Shown: piece after piece, positions 2,078-7,650 of the stretch
Layout: the number at the start of each line of letters is the position of its first letter
Numbering within the stretch: position 1 is the stretch's first letter
Source: Nitrospinaceae bacterium
GTDB taxonomy: Bacteria > Nitrospinota > Nitrospinia > Nitrospinales > Nitrospinaceae
DNA: 61,614 bases
Direction: 5' to 3'
Assembly (NCBI GenBank): GCA_028278405.1
Contig: JANQEK010000008.1
Span: forward strand, 1 to 61,614
Position numbers and translations under genes: made by a program
Notes under the pieces: generated by a model
What the model was told of the DNA's origin: nothing
The model's input: the letters and a program-made list of their open reading frames with translations, nothing else
The model's database searches: none

Positions 2078-3466
2078 CTAGCGCACCCGCCAGGTATCCT
2101 TCTCACGTCCGGTATGATTGGCCTGGACCCAGCGGTTGATCTTGATGACTTTTTCCACCAGTTCACCGATATCCTGTGCCAATACGCGAATCATCTCCTC
2201 TTTTCCCTGCCCTCCCAGATCAAAGATAATATCCGGTACGTAGCCACAGTCTGTGATCGCTTGATGTGTTCCCCACTCCAATGAGGACCCTTCTTTCTGC
2301 TTGATACTTTTAGGTTCTTTAGCACGATCGAACGAGGCAATCTTGAATTTCAGTTTCCTGCAGGCCTTGAGAATGGAATCTGTAAACTTGATGTTCATCA
2401 CCGCACGCATTTCAGGATTAAAATGCATAGCCGTCAATACGATTTTCGCGACATGTTGCGAAGCACCGAACCGGGGTGCGGCCACTGTAAAAATATCGTC
2501 GCCAATTCTACTGATGCGTCCCGGAATGGCGGCGACATCTCCAGGTCCCTGAGCTCCGGGGAGACCGATACCGATATTTGACTGCACTTCCGGAATCAAC
2601 CGGCCAATCCGGTTTTCCTTCAACAGTTCTATCGCGGCAGATAATTTCGGAATCACTTCGAATCGATTTTGTATTTTGAACAGGGAAGCCATCGGGTCTA
2701 CACTTCCCAGGCCATTCTCTCCCCCGACACCGTTGGCAATCCCCTCGGTCACCCATCCTTTGCCCTTTTGAATTGCCAGGGACATCTCCATGCCAAGAGC
2801 CAAACCAGAAGCGATAGCCGCAGACAGAACGCATCCGGTCCCATGTGCATCCTTCTTTCCAATTCGCGCTCCTTCAAAAACCTCGTGTCGTTTCCCGTCG
2901 AAAAAGAAATCATCAGCACTGCCTTTGGCATGTCCGCCTTTGATCAATACATTCTTAACACCTAACTTACAAATCACCTTGGCGGCTTTCAAACGATCCT
3001 GCGGACTCTTGATACGTACTCCTGACAAAATTTCCGCTTCAGGTATATTCGGCGTTACCAGAAGCGCCAGCGGCAAAAGCTTCTCTTTGAGCACTTCCAC
3101 TCCTTTTTTGGAGAGCAAAGTTTTTCCGCTTGAGGATTTTAGAACCGGGTCCACCACCAGATTTTTAACGCGCGCTTTCTTTAACAGACGGGCGACGCAC
3201 TCTACCAAATTCTCGTTGCCCAGCATCCCGGTCTTAACCGCGGCAGGCTTGCCGTCTGCCAGCACGGCTTTCAGTTGTTCTTCCACTTCCTCTACAGAAA
3301 GATCAAAAACGGCCTGTACGCCTTTGGAGTTTTGAGCAGTGATAGAAGTGATCACCGACGTTGCAAACAACTTATGAGCGGAAATAGTTTTGATGTCCGC
3401 CTGGATACCGGCGCCGCCGCTGGAGTCGGAACCGGCAATCGTCAATACGGATGGAACCTGTTTCAT
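2078..3466 (-). CDS. thiDN: Bifunctional hydroxymethylpyrimidine (phosphate) kinase / ThiN-type thiamine-phosphate synthase
   Basis: The N-terminal ribokinase-fold half (residues 8 to about 260) is ThiD: it has the AGSDSSGGAGIQADI signature, VKTGMLG and the HGTGCVLSAAIA anion hole. ThiD phosphorylates HMP and HMP-P. The C-terminal half (about 290-455) matches ThiN, which couples HMP-PP to thiazole phosphate in place of ThiE; visible motifs are SNIGIGLPGA and RFGASQHVA. ThiDN fusions are best known from archaea and a few bacteria. It is last in the fis-glmU-glmS operon, 110 bp behind glmS. An in-frame TTG lies 6 nt upstream at 3472; the ATG at 3466 is chosen, with AAGG about 11 nt before it. 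Confidence 0.88.
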   Translation of the reverse strand: MKQVPSVLTIAGSDSSGGAGIQADIKTISAHKLFATSVITSITAQNSKGVQAVFDLSVEEVEEQLKAVLADGKPAAVKTGMLGNENLVECVARLLKKARVKNLVVDPVLKSSSGKTLLSKKGVEVLKEKLLPLALLVTPNIPEAEILSGVRIKSPQDRLKAAKVICKLGVKNVLIKGGHAKGSADDFFFDGKRHEVFEGARIGKKDAHGTGCVLSAAIASGLALGMEMSLAIQKGKGWVTEGIANGVGGENGLGSVDPMASLFKIQNRFEVIPKLSAAIELLKENRIGRLIPEVQSNIGIGLPGAQGPGDVAAIPGRISRIGDDIFTVAAPRFGASQHVAKIVLTAMHFNPEMRAVMNIKFTDSILKACRKLKFKIASFDRAKEPKSIKQKEGSSLEWGTHQAITDCGYVPDIIFDLGGQGKEEMIRVLAQDIGELVEKVIKINRWVQANHTGREKDTWRVR

Positions 3467-3576
3467 AGTCAAACTGGCCTTATCATCGAAATTCAGCAGG
3501 CATTCAAAGATCTTGCCGATCGCTGAATTGAAAGGTTGATTAAATCAAGCGTTGAGGAAATAGTCCGGGCAACAGC

Positions 3577-5397
3577 CTAACCCACGGTGACGGATTTGGC
3601 AAGAGAACGGGGCTTGTCCACGTTTCTTTTCAGGGAGGTAGCTGTGAAATAGGCGAACAACTGGGCAATCACCATCTGAATCAGGGGAGCAATGACTGGT
3701 GGTACTGGCGGCAGAATCAACTCTTCGCTGAACAGCTTCTGGTTCCGGTTGCCCTCGTCGAAGTGGATTCCCAATACAAATCCATCGCGGGCGCGGATTT
3801 CCTCCACGCTGGCCAGGGTCGATTCGTACAGGACTTTTTCGGAACTGGGTGGGATGAACACAATCGAATTGATGTCCGAGTCGATCATAGCCAGGGTGCC
3901 GTGCTTCAGAAACCCGCAAGGCATCCCTTCGGCATGAACATAGGCAACTTCTTTCATTTTGAGCGCAGATTCCAAAGCGATGGGGTAATACATTCCACGC
4001 CCCAGATAAAGCCAGTTTTTGACATTCCGGTGGTTGTGGGCAACCCGGTGAATAAAACCGGACCGTTCATTTAAAATATTTTCAATAATGCCGGGCAGAG
4101 AACGAAGGGACTCCATATGTTCGCCACACATCTTTTGCGTCATTTTTTTATTTTTGACCGCCAGTTTCAAAGCCGTGCGGGTCAACAAAATCATTTGTGC
4201 CAAAGCCGCTTTGGTGCTGATCACACAAATTTCCGGTCCCGATCCCTGCAACACAGGGCAGTCCACCATCCGCGACAGAGTCGATCCCATCACATTCACA
4301 ATCGCGCCGGTTTTGGCTCCGCGCGACTTGGCATGCTTGAGAGCGGATATGGTGTCATAGGTTTCACCGGACTGGGAAGCGGCGAGCACAAAGCTGTCTT
4401 TATCCACCGGGGACAAGGAAATAAATTCATCCGAACTGATAGCCGGGATATATCTCCCTGACATTGAGGAAAAAATATAGTTGGCGTACATGGTCACATA
4501 GTAGGTCGTCCCGACACCCACCAGTTGCGCATTTTTACTTTTATGGATCAAGCCCACAAGTTGGTCGATGGTTTTCTCATCGACTTCCAGGGCATTGATC
4601 ACCGTCTGCGGCTGCTCGTAAATCTCCTTGAGCATGTAATGCGGATACCCCCCCTTTTTGGAGGTTTCGCTATCCCATTCAATGCGCATGATCGGCTTGT
4701 CAACTTCTTCTTTGGTAACGAAGTTTTTTACGGTATAGCCGTCTTTGGAAACAATGGCGTATTCGTCATCATCGATGATCACCGCATTTTTGGTCTGGTC
4801 GATAAATGCGTTGAAATCCGAACCGATGTATTTCACTTCGTCTCCGATGCCCAGCAACAAAGGCGATTCCCTTTTGGCACAATAAATCTGGTCCGGCTCA
4901 TAATTGCTGATAAAGGCCATTGCGAAAGTACCTTCCAATTGACCGAGGGTACTCAAAAAACTGGATTCGACATTGCCCGTTTTTTTGTAAAAGTTTTCCA
5001 GCAGGTGCGGAATAACCTCTGTGTCGGTATCCGACTGGAATCGGTGCCCTTCTCTTTTAAGGCGGTCTCTCAGCTCTTGGTGATTGGAAATGATGCCGTT
5101 GTGGATAACGGCGAAATTATTGTCACAGGACAAAAAGGGATGGGTGTTGTTGCGGGTGACCTGTCCGTGCGTGGCCCAGCGGGTATGGGCAATACCGAGA
5201 TGGGAAGAGTGCCGTAAAATGTTTTCTTTCTGGTAAACATCGCCCACTCCACCCACATTCTTTTTGACGATGATGCTTTTTCGATTCATCAGCGCCACGC
5301 CGCAGGAATCGTAACCCCGGTATTCCAGGTTACGAATACCGTCGAACAAAACGTTCGATATATCTTTCAGGCCGACGGCCCCGGTAATTCCACACAT
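3577..5397 (-). CDS. glmS: Glutamine-fructose-6-phosphate aminotransferase (isomerizing)
   Basis: GlmS makes glucosamine-6-phosphate from fructose-6-phosphate and glutamine, the entry to UDP-GlcNAc for peptidoglycan and lipid A. The 606-residue length is standard. The start MCGITGAVG exposes the Cys nucleophile after Met removal, and the type II glutamine amidotransferase domain covers about residues 2-220. Two SIS sugar-isomerase domains follow (about 285-420 and 455-596), and the C-terminus LAKSVTVG is the conserved tail. It lies 12 bp after the GlmU-like gene, so it belongs to the amino-sugar operon. No glmS ribozyme-like leader is expected or seen in that short gap. Confidence 0.97.
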   Translation of the reverse strand: MCGITGAVGLKDISNVLFDGIRNLEYRGYDSCGVALMNRKSIIVKKNVGGVGDVYQKENILRHSSHLGIAHTRWATHGQVTRNNTHPFLSCDNNFAVIHNGIISNHQELRDRLKREGHRFQSDTDTEVIPHLLENFYKKTGNVESSFLSTLGQLEGTFAMAFISNYEPDQIYCAKRESPLLLGIGDEVKYIGSDFNAFIDQTKNAVIIDDDEYAIVSKDGYTVKNFVTKEEVDKPIMRIEWDSETSKKGGYPHYMLKEIYEQPQTVINALEVDEKTIDQLVGLIHKSKNAQLVGVGTTYYVTMYANYIFSSMSGRYIPAISSDEFISLSPVDKDSFVLAASQSGETYDTISALKHAKSRGAKTGAIVNVMGSTLSRMVDCPVLQGSGPEICVISTKAALAQMILLTRTALKLAVKNKKMTQKMCGEHMESLRSLPGIIENILNERSGFIHRVAHNHRNVKNWLYLGRGMYYPIALESALKMKEVAYVHAEGMPCGFLKHGTLAMIDSDINSIVFIPPSSEKVLYESTLASVEEIRARDGFVLGIHFDEGNRNQKLFSEELILPPVPPVIAPLIQMVIAQLFAYFTATSLKRNVDKPRSLAKSVTVG

Positions 5398-5409: not shown

Positions 5410-6615
5410 CTATCGGCTGGGCACAGAATAATGAGCAGGCAGAACCTTACCCGGCGGAACACTGGTGCCGGGCTCAATGGAGTTTCCTGCTCCAATAGCC
5501 ACATCATCACCAATGAATGCACCCAGTTTCAAAATACCGGTATCCCTGGATTTCTTCTGATGTTTGACCTTAATGGTGCTCCAGTCCAGATTCCGGTTAA
5601 CGGTCATCATTCCGGCACCGATATCCACATTCTCTCCCAAAACGCTGTCCCCAATAAACGACAGGCGGCCGATATGTGAATTTTGCTGCACCACACAGTT
5701 TTTCAATTCCACCCCATAACCCACAGAACAGTTGTCCCCCAGGGCGGTGTAGCTGCGGATCAGTGAATTGTTTCCGATATAACAGCCCTTACCGATGGAA
5801 CAAGGCCCTTCCAGTACCGCTCCGGCTTTGATGATAACGTCATCTTCAATATGCACCGTTCCCTGAATGGTCACATTCGCTTCCAGTGTCACTGTTTTGG
5901 ATATCTCAGAATGGCCCCATGAATCCATGATGATTCGGTTTGCCCTTAAAATCTCCCAGGGATACACAATGTCCAGCCATTCATCTTCCCACATCGAGGC
6001 CCGCAAACCCTCATTCTCCACCAGCACCTTGATCGCCTTTTCCATGGAGCGGTTATTTTTTTCCAACAAACCAAAGAAGCTTTCGGGAAGAATATAGACT
6101 CCGGACAAAACATAATTGCCAAGATTGTCGCCCTTTGGCTTTTCAACGATCTTGGTGATGTTCATATTCGCATTCAGAAACACGTTGCCGAACATCTCGT
6201 TGGAAGGCGGCAGGCAGATGGAAGCCACCGGCCCCTTGAAGGCGTGGAACGATTGTTGGGTTTTGGTGAAGATGTTTTCTGCGGTTACAATATCGCCGTA
6301 AATCAGCAGAAAATATTCTCCCGGTAAAATTTTATCCTTGATCCGCAACACCGCATCGCCGATTCCACCGGCTCGACTTTGCACCATGTACTGAAGGTTC
6401 AAGCCGTTGTGGACGTGCTCGCCAATCCGCTCAACAAGTTTTTCCTTCTGATGCCCCACAACAACAAAAATGTCGTTGATTCCAGCTTTCTGAAGCAGAT
6501 CGAGGTTGTGATCAAACAGATACTTCCCGGCCACACTGATCATGGGATTGGGACGGGTATCGGAAAAGGGTTTGAGGTTGTCGCCTTTGCCGGCGGCAAG
6601 GATAACGGCTTTCAT
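5410..6615 (-). CDS. Two-domain sugar-1-phosphate nucleotidylyltransferase / left-handed beta-helix acetyltransferase (archaeal GlmU type)
   Basis: The 401-residue protein has an N-terminal nucleotidyltransferase fold (1 to about 225) and a C-terminal hexapeptide-repeat beta-helix (about 245-400). The layout is that of archaeal bifunctional GlcN-1-P acetyltransferase/UDP-GlcNAc pyrophosphorylases. The acetyltransferase part keeps the GDSVLGENVDIGAG signature. The nucleotide-binding loop reads LAAGKGDNLKP, where GxGTRL/M is usual, so the conserved Thr-Arg is replaced by Asp-Asn. YGD and VEKP motifs remain. It sits between a stand-alone GlmU pyrophosphorylase domain and glmS. I infer that it supplies the acetyltransferase step, with its own pyrophosphorylase activity doubtful. 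Confidence 0.82.
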   Translation of the reverse strand: MKAVILAAGKGDNLKPFSDTRPNPMISVAGKYLFDHNLDLLQKAGINDIFVVVGHQKEKLVERIGEHVHNGLNLQYMVQSRAGGIGDAVLRIKDKILPGEYFLLIYGDIVTAENIFTKTQQSFHAFKGPVASICLPPSNEMFGNVFLNANMNITKIVEKPKGDNLGNYVLSGVYILPESFFGLLEKNNRSMEKAIKVLVENEGLRASMWEDEWLDIVYPWEILRANRIIMDSWGHSEISKTVTLEANVTIQGTVHIEDDVIIKAGAVLEGPCSIGKGCYIGNNSLIRSYTALGDNCSVGYGVELKNCVVQQNSHIGRLSFIGDSVLGENVDIGAGMMTVNRNLDWSTIKVKHQKKSRDTGILKLGAFIGDDVAIGAGNSIEPGTSVPPGKVLPAHYSVPSR

Positions 6616-6664
6616 GGTTTAACTTTCGAATTCGATTGATTGGGGGAAATGATGGTGCCCGTCG

Positions 6665-7402
6665 TCAGGCTTTCACGATCTTTTCGGCTTTTTCTAAGTC
6701 TTCGGAAGAGTTGATACCTAAAATTTCATCCGCGTCCCGGGTCGTATGGCATACCACCTCGTGCCCGTTCTGAGAGAGAATCCCGACCGTATCGGTCAAA
6801 TAATACTCCCCCTGCGCGTTGCTGGTGTCAACGGAAGCTAACGCTTTGAAAAGAAGGCCCTTATCAAAACAATAAACGCCAGAGTTGTATTCGTCAATAG
6901 TTTTTTCCTGTTCGCTCGCATCCCGAACCTCTACGATGCGCAAAACCGCCCCCTCCGGATTGCGCACCACACGGCCAAAATCCTTCTTTTCCTTGGTTTT
7001 AAGGCTCAACAGAGTGCACCCGGCACCGGTATCGCGATGCTTCTGAAGCAGGGTTTGAAGGGTCGAGGATTGGATCAAGGGCATGTCCCCGCACAGGATA
7101 AGAACATCTCCCTCAAAATCCTCCAAAATGGTTTGAGCCTGCAGAACCGCGTGCCCTGTACCCAGTTGCTCCGTCTGCTCGACAAACTCAATGGGACGGT
7201 TGGCACAGGCATGTTTGACCTCCTCAGCCTGATGCCCCACCACGACCACCACTCGTTGGGGATCCAGGGCAACTGCCGTATCCAGCACATGAATCAGCAG
7301 TGGACGCGACGCCAGAGCATGCAAAACCTTGGCGCGGTCGGATTTCATCCGGGTGCCTTTACCCGCGGCCAGAATGACTACAGCTAGCTTTTGCTTTGGC
7401 AT
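6665..7402 (-). CDS. glmU: Stand-alone GlmU-type UDP-GlcNAc pyrophosphorylase domain
   Basis: At 245 residues this matches only the N-terminal uridylyltransferase half of bacterial GlmU. It has an intact LAAGKGTRMKS nucleotide loop, the acceptor-proximal KVLH, EQLGTGHAV, LCGDMPL and a final catalytic-region EYYLTD. The C-terminal beta-helix acetyltransferase of canonical GlmU (about 450 residues) is absent, and there is no trace of it before the next gene. The following gene carries a beta-helix domain and may supply that step. Its start overlaps the end of fis by 19 bp, which suggests translational coupling. The symbol refers to homology with the N-half only. Confidence 0.85.
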   Translation of the reverse strand: MPKQKLAVVILAAGKGTRMKSDRAKVLHALASRPLLIHVLDTAVALDPQRVVVVVGHQAEEVKHACANRPIEFVEQTEQLGTGHAVLQAQTILEDFEGDVLILCGDMPLIQSSTLQTLLQKHRDTGAGCTLLSLKTKEKKDFGRVVRNPEGAVLRIVEVRDASEQEKTIDEYNSGVYCFDKGLLFKALASVDTSNAQGEYYLTDTVGILSQNGHEVVCHTTRDADEILGINSSEDLEKAEKIVKA

Positions 7403-7650
7403 TTAATATTATAGTCTTGGATTTTTTTGCGAAGGGTGTTGCGGTTGATTCCAAGAATGTTGGCGGCCTTGGTCCGGTTGCCCTCGGTTTCTTGAAGCAC
7501 GATTTCCAACAGAGGTTTTTCAACCCCACCTATGATCAAATCGTGAAGTCCTCCGTTTTGCCGAACGTCCATATGCGATACGTACTTTTTAACGCTGGTA
7601 TCCAACCATTTTTCAAGAAAAGTCTGGATTTTTTTATCAACCTTCGGCAT
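7384..7650 (-). CDS. fis: Fis-family DNA-binding protein
   Basis: This 88-residue protein ends in a Fis/NtrC-type helix-turn-helix (about residues 45-82: GNRTKAANILGINRNTLRKKI), preceded by a short dimerisation region. There is no receiver or AAA+ domain, so it is a Fis-like nucleoid or regulatory protein rather than a truncated enhancer-binding protein. It is first in the operon, and its last codons overlap the glmU-N start. A good promoter (7707-7735) lies about 50 nt upstream. Whether it autoregulates the operon is not visible. Confidence 0.85.
   Translation of the reverse strand: MPKVDKKIQTFLEKWLDTSVKKYVSHMDVRQNGGLHDLIIGGVEKPLLEIVLQETEGNRTKAANILGINRNTLRKKIQDYNIKCQSKS

Follow-up and report, generated by a model that had tools for sequence, protein, structure and literature searches.

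Evidence for a split GlmU in Nitrospinota and for a conserved GlmU-like protein, a predicted pseudoenzyme, beside glmS

The glmS locus and its two GlmU-like genes

The window analysed here is the whole stretch of 61,614 nucleotides of contig JANQEK010000008.1 (GenBank assembly GCA_028278405.1) from a Nitrospinaceae bacterium. On its minus strand a gene for a Fis-family DNA-binding protein (7384..7650) is followed by two GlmU-like genes, A (6665..7402) and B (5410..6615), by glmS (3577..5397) and by a gene for a ThiD-ThiN fusion (2078-3472). The Fis-family gene extends over the start of A and is found next to it in most of the order-level loci read as well; it probably represents operon context only. 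The ThiD-ThiN fusion (411 bits with PRK08573, under the cut-off of that model) also lies downstream of glmS in most of the order-level loci read. The glmS gene, the only one of the genome, encodes a protein of 606 aa that keeps Lys485, Glu488, His504 and Lys603 and belongs to the lineage linked to B, called GlmS2 below. An altered GlmS making another product was considered and rejected, because the isomerase residues are kept and this is the only GlmS in nearly every genome of the order.

Gene A codes for a standalone GlmU uridylyltransferase (N-terminal) domain of 245 aa with a GKGTRM loop and an intact active site. In profile searches it scores 277 bits with TIGR01173, aligned over approximately positions 2-238 only, while the cut-off for a whole GlmU is 366.85 bits; all GlmU models end near position 240 of the protein. 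Since the models match positions 2-238 only, A is without a beta-helix, as the original prediction had it, and it falls outside TIGR01173 both by the missing fused C-terminal beta-helix and by score. Sites in A, B and C are compared in E. coli GlmU numbering, and both this numbering and the residue roles are established for the family. Arg18, Lys25, Gln76, Gly81, Thr82, Asp105, Gly140, Glu154, Tyr197 and Asn227 are invariant in an alignment of A proteins (71/71), and these include the uridylyl active-site residues of GlmU (Arg18, Lys25, Thr82, Asp105, Glu154 and Asn227). The conservation supports the proposed function of A as a lone uridylyltransferase.

Four genomes (G015, G061, G072 and G083) yielded no A. 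The genome of G015 (1.7 Mb, 97% complete) lacks it at the B locus (L086, G015:C25), where approximately 60 bases separate fis from B, and no other GlmU N-terminal domain was found in this genome; its B has the most degenerate loop of all (AADEGVHL..TRHVSM). In G077 the A protein is longer, up to 355 aa (L158:1441-2505), retains part of the beta-helix (GlmU positions 2-327) and adjoins an intact B; it has the appearance of a stage on the way to losing the GlmU acetyltransferase domain. Truncated GlmUs of this kind also occur in the phylum of G080. In two Coatesbacteria (G084, L160:427-2316; G082, L161:437-2362) and in AUK292 (G081, L162:453-2351) a response regulator with an apparent HD-GYP domain is followed by the GlmU N-terminal domain in a single stop-free frame of 630-642 aa; this is either a genuine fusion of a signalling protein with GlmU or two genes overlapping in frame. 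A phosphohexomutase gene follows directly after this frame in L160.

Gene B encodes a two-domain, ST0452/Arch-GlmU-like protein of 401 aa, a predicted pseudoenzyme in which both active sites are without catalytic residues. The archaeal type recognized by the original prediction is borne out by a TIGR03992 (Arch_glmU) score of 311.0 bits, over the curated cut-off of 292.1, with residues 1-392 and both domains covered, and by ST0452 (PDB 2ggo) as the closest solved structure (E 5e-54, across both domains). The AlphaFold model of B has a mean pLDDT of 67, is weak in the loop and was used for fold assignment only; a fold search with this model of moderate confidence gave ST0452 as its top hit and also matched GMPPA/GMPPB and VTC1.

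The nucleotide loop of B (residues 4-17, VILAAGKGDNLKPF; 6565..6606, minus strand) is degenerate, Thr17 being replaced by Asp12 and Arg18 by Asn13 of B. This GKGDNLKP reading without Thr-Arg had been noted before and holds; further losses concern Lys25, Thr82, Asn169, His363 and Tyr366. It is not a sequencing error, because the loop Arg is missing in all 59 distinct homologues covering the loop, where Asn, His, Lys and others take its place. Positions 12 and 13 differ freely among species (Asp, Ser, Pro, Thr, Ala or Lys, and Asn, His, Lys or Gly, respectively). The Lys25 equivalent, just downstream of the loop (TRPNPM), is Asn23; it is lost nearly throughout the order of the window, except in G008, but most other families and phyla retain it. 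Ile takes the place of Thr82 in 59/59 homologues, and Leu that of Asn169 in the 28/28 proteins of alignment A2. The positions of Asp105, Gly140, Glu154, Gln76 and Tyr103 of the uridylyl site are kept, as are the metal-site residues Asp108 and Asp215. In the acetyltransferase motif (residues 316-324, GRLSFIGDS; 5644..5670, minus strand) His363 has become Arg317 and Tyr366 Phe320, which applies to 61/61 and 60/61 homologues, respectively; the Asn377 equivalent is mostly Asp, and the equivalents of Arg333, Glu349, Lys351, Asn386 and Lys392 are retained in essentially all homologues. We take His363 to be the general base of the acetyltransferase and Arg18, Lys25 and Thr82 to help hold the nucleotide. 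On these assignments B appears to retain much of its binding residues and to lose the reacting residues at both sites, and both active sites look dead. The losses in loop and site thus support the earlier view that B is unlikely to transfer UMP normally.

ST0452 of Sulfolobus tokodaii (TIGR03992; PDB 2ggo, 5z09, 5z0a) has the same two domains and is the best match of B in sequence and fold, but four residues that are present in it, namely the Arg of the loop, the Lys, the GTG Thr and the catalytic His, have been lost from B, the Lys almost exclusively in the order of the window. B therefore lacks the residues that characterize an ST0452-type enzyme. The loop of ST0452 (GERL) is itself without Thr but has the Arg; of the two loop residues to which attention had been drawn, only the Arg is thus the telling loss in B.

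A sequencing or frameshift artefact was rejected as an explanation for B, whose open frame and motifs are kept in more than 60 genomes. Within-genus dN/dS values (NG86) range from 0.033 to 0.065 in B, compared with 0.12-0.15 in A and 0.05-0.09 in C, the acetyltransferase gene described below. B is the most constrained of the three and is under the strongest purifying selection, so that a decaying pseudogene (B values of 0.03-0.07) is likewise rejected.

A separate acetyltransferase and the division of GlmU

No match over the TIGR01173 cut-off was obtained in the 77 Nitrospinota genomes searched (61 + 16), including that of the window, for which the evidence consists of profile searches and fetched stretches; the full-length glmU that would have contradicted a split was thus sought and not met with in this set. 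The acetyltransferase active site is found instead in a third gene, C, which encodes a standalone beta-helix acetyltransferase. In the genome of the window (G000:C4:1-762, with AGHFNYIGDSIIG...VNLGAG) it is cut off by the contig end; it is full-length in G047 (L105:348-1169). C is present in 66 of the 77 genomes, in 30 of the 31 of high quality and in 24/24 genera. The GlmU acetyltransferase motif GHFNY.GDS...VN.GAG is conserved, and an alignment of 31 C proteins contains the equivalents of His363, Tyr366, Asn377, Arg333, Glu349, Lys351 and Asn386; the His motif is also present in 16/16 C proteins of another phylum, that of G080. The beta-helix of C scores highest with TIGR03992 and TIGR03991, not with TIGR01173, and stays below the cut-off of every specific model, which makes the gene easy to mis-annotate.

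A phosphohexomutase gene adjoins C in 30 of 31 loci. The mutase is long (approximately 700 aa), divergent and phylum-wide (G000:C4:766-2790, L259; L105:1169-2449). No canonical GlmM over the TIGR01455 cut-off was detected in the Nitrospinota genomes tested, which suggests that the phosphoglucosamine mutase step is non-canonical as well. In G077 the run A-B-glmS2-mutase-C extends over contigs C43 and C46, which are joined by an exact end overlap of 127 bases, and in G083 (Tectomicrobia) B, glmS2 and C lie inside 6 kb of one contig.

Genomes outside Nitrospinota indicate which gene replaces the lost half of GlmU. In three Binatota genomes (G079, G080 and G085) B occurs alongside a complete GlmU of 491-519 bits, and the matches listed for them contain no C. 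In the phylum of G080 a full GlmU over the cut-off occurs in 30 of 59 genomes and C in 16 others (tblastn, with the His motif in all 16); the two sets show zero overlap among the matches listed (to approximately E 2e-11), and C is present in 10 of the 13 genomes with a truncated GlmU. Loss of the GlmU beta-helix is thus accompanied by C, not by B. Canonical GlmU (TIGR01173) is one bifunctional protein, with A corresponding to its N-terminal half and its acetyltransferase active site carried by C, whereas A and C are two separate genes. As C is a standalone acetyltransferase and B coexists with a complete GlmU in Binatota, GlmU very probably has been split into the single-function proteins A and C, with B as an extra component. 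A division of GlmU over two neighbouring genes had been predicted from the window: the split is well supported, but the neighbour B is probably not the other half.

The acetylation of GlcN-1-P originally assigned to B could still be defended if B worked without the usual His, by means of Arg317 or the substrate's own chemistry, while C acetylated something else. The retained equivalents of Arg333, Glu349, Lys351, Asn386 and Lys392 are in favor of this, as is the location of B between A and glmS in nearly the whole order. We nevertheless consider it unlikely, given the invariant replacement of His363 by Arg and the nearly invariant one of Tyr366 by Phe, the full site of C and its position next to the phosphohexomutase across the phylum, the complete GlmU alongside B in Binatota, and the association of C with truncated GlmU and its avoidance of full GlmU in the phylum of G080 (among the matches listed).

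No report of a split GlmU in Nitrospinota was found in the part of the literature covered, which is weak evidence for novelty.

Distribution of B and its link to GlmS2

B was found in 66 of the 77 Nitrospinota genomes. In seven of those without it (G046, G047, G048, G055, G057, G071 and G076) glmS is cut by a contig end or lies less than approximately 200 bases from one, and in the other four (G004, G020, G056 and G058) no glmS was recovered either. Outside Nitrospinota, B occurs in Binatota, Tectomicrobia, Coatesbacteria and AUK292, beside glmS where the contig permits. The co-occurrence of A and B, which the original prediction had proposed to survey, holds in 30/30 order-level loci first fetched, with A directly upstream of B; G015 is a later exception.

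In the tree, all GlmS proteins encoded next to B form one clade, GlmS2 (support 100/100, four phyla); they are 47-73% identical to GlmS of the window and 36-39% to E. coli GlmS. Genomes G073 and G075 have a second GlmS (GlmS1) that adjoins A (L260 and L264, as against L071 and L072). It groups with the E. coli enzyme, and so do the additional copies in G070 and G083; branches are long and the finer placing is unsure. In G073 and G075 the pairing of A with GlmS1 and of B with GlmS2 suggests two originally separate modules. We infer an ancestor with GlmS1 next to A and GlmS2 next to B, from which the order of the window lost GlmS1 while A moved beside B. GlmS2 is the sole GlmS in this order, with the exception of G059, which has a second partial match. 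In family f7 (G067-G069) both GlmS2 and B are present without being adjacent.

Possible role of B in UDP-GlcNAc synthesis

In the pathway we propose, GlmS2 would make GlcN-6-P, the non-canonical phosphohexomutase would act next, and A and C would carry out the two GlmU reactions, C forming GlcNAc-1-P and A converting it to UDP-GlcNAc. B would bind UDP-GlcNAc, GlcN-1-P or GlcNAc-1-P and, as a feedback sensor, control GlmS2, and possibly A or C too, via its beta-helix.

Regulators of this design are known in the same fold. GMPPA, which has no catalytic activity, inhibits GMPPB and is a binder of GDP-mannose (PMC11228364), and KONJAC1/2 (KJC1/2) upregulate VTC1 (PMC9168903). Both are paralogues, with nucleotidyltransferase and beta-helix, that regulate an enzyme of nucleotide-sugar synthesis; B shares this architecture and, like GMPPA, has lost the catalytic loop. 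The known systems are eukaryotic, concern GDP-mannose rather than UDP-GlcNAc and act on a paralogue, whereas B is linked to GlmS by gene order. In Bacillus subtilis GlmR (YvcK) binds UDP-GlcNAc and stimulates GlmS, and UDP-GlcNAc prevents this stimulation (PMC7525490). GlmR is a parallel to the proposed role of B in function only. The two proteins belong to different families.

A regulatory role is suggested by the pattern of kept binding and lost chemistry together with the precedents of GMPPA and KJC1/2, and by analogy with GMPPA or GlmR we tentatively regard B as a sugar-nucleotide-sensing pseudoenzyme partner of GlmS2, the likeliest of the readings considered. The Arg that invariably replaces the catalytic His could instead mean altered chemistry, and the replacement of Thr82 by Ile and of Asn169 by Leu could also abolish the binding of UDP-GlcNAc.

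Altered chemistry would make B an active enzyme, fed by GlmS2, for a reaction that involves another amino-sugar phosphate, another acyl group or another nucleotide. The very strong conservation of B, including the invariant Arg317 and the metal-site Asp108 and Asp215, would fit such an enzyme, as would the two GlmS lineages of G073 and G075, one by A and one by B. It is improbable in view of the order of the window, where GlmS2 as the only GlmS must supply the ordinary pathway, and of the free variation at loop positions 12-13, which fits a lost rather than a changed nucleotide chemistry.

That B serves mainly as a scaffold, with its beta-helix bringing A, GlmS2 and C together for channelling, would account for an A without an oligomerising beta-helix of its own and for the contiguous A-B-glmS2(-mutase-C) runs of several lineages, but is very unlikely, as f9 genomes have A by a different GlmS and apart from B, and Binatota have B though their GlmU retains its own beta-helix.

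Returning to B as a sensor, it is possible, if rather doubtful, that it founds a bacterial family of GlmU-derived pseudoenzymes in Nitrospinota, Binatota, Tectomicrobia and Coatesbacteria, which would sense intermediates of the UDP-GlcNAc pathway and exert feedback control on a GlmS lineage dedicated to them; such a family would be the bacterial equivalent of GMPPA, directed at the first step of the pathway.

GlmU is generally considered a bifunctional enzyme present in nearly all bacteria, and a drug target. In Nitrospinota, a phylum that includes major marine nitrite oxidisers, GlmU is absent from the genomes searched and two separate proteins very probably provide the cell-wall sugar precursor; the arrangement of A and C recurs in another phylum. 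Annotation by TIGR03992 would describe B as a bifunctional GlmU-like enzyme although both of its sites look dead. If B does sense UDP-GlcNAc and control GlmS, bacteria would have another way, beside GlmR and RapZ, to regulate carbon flow into the cell wall.
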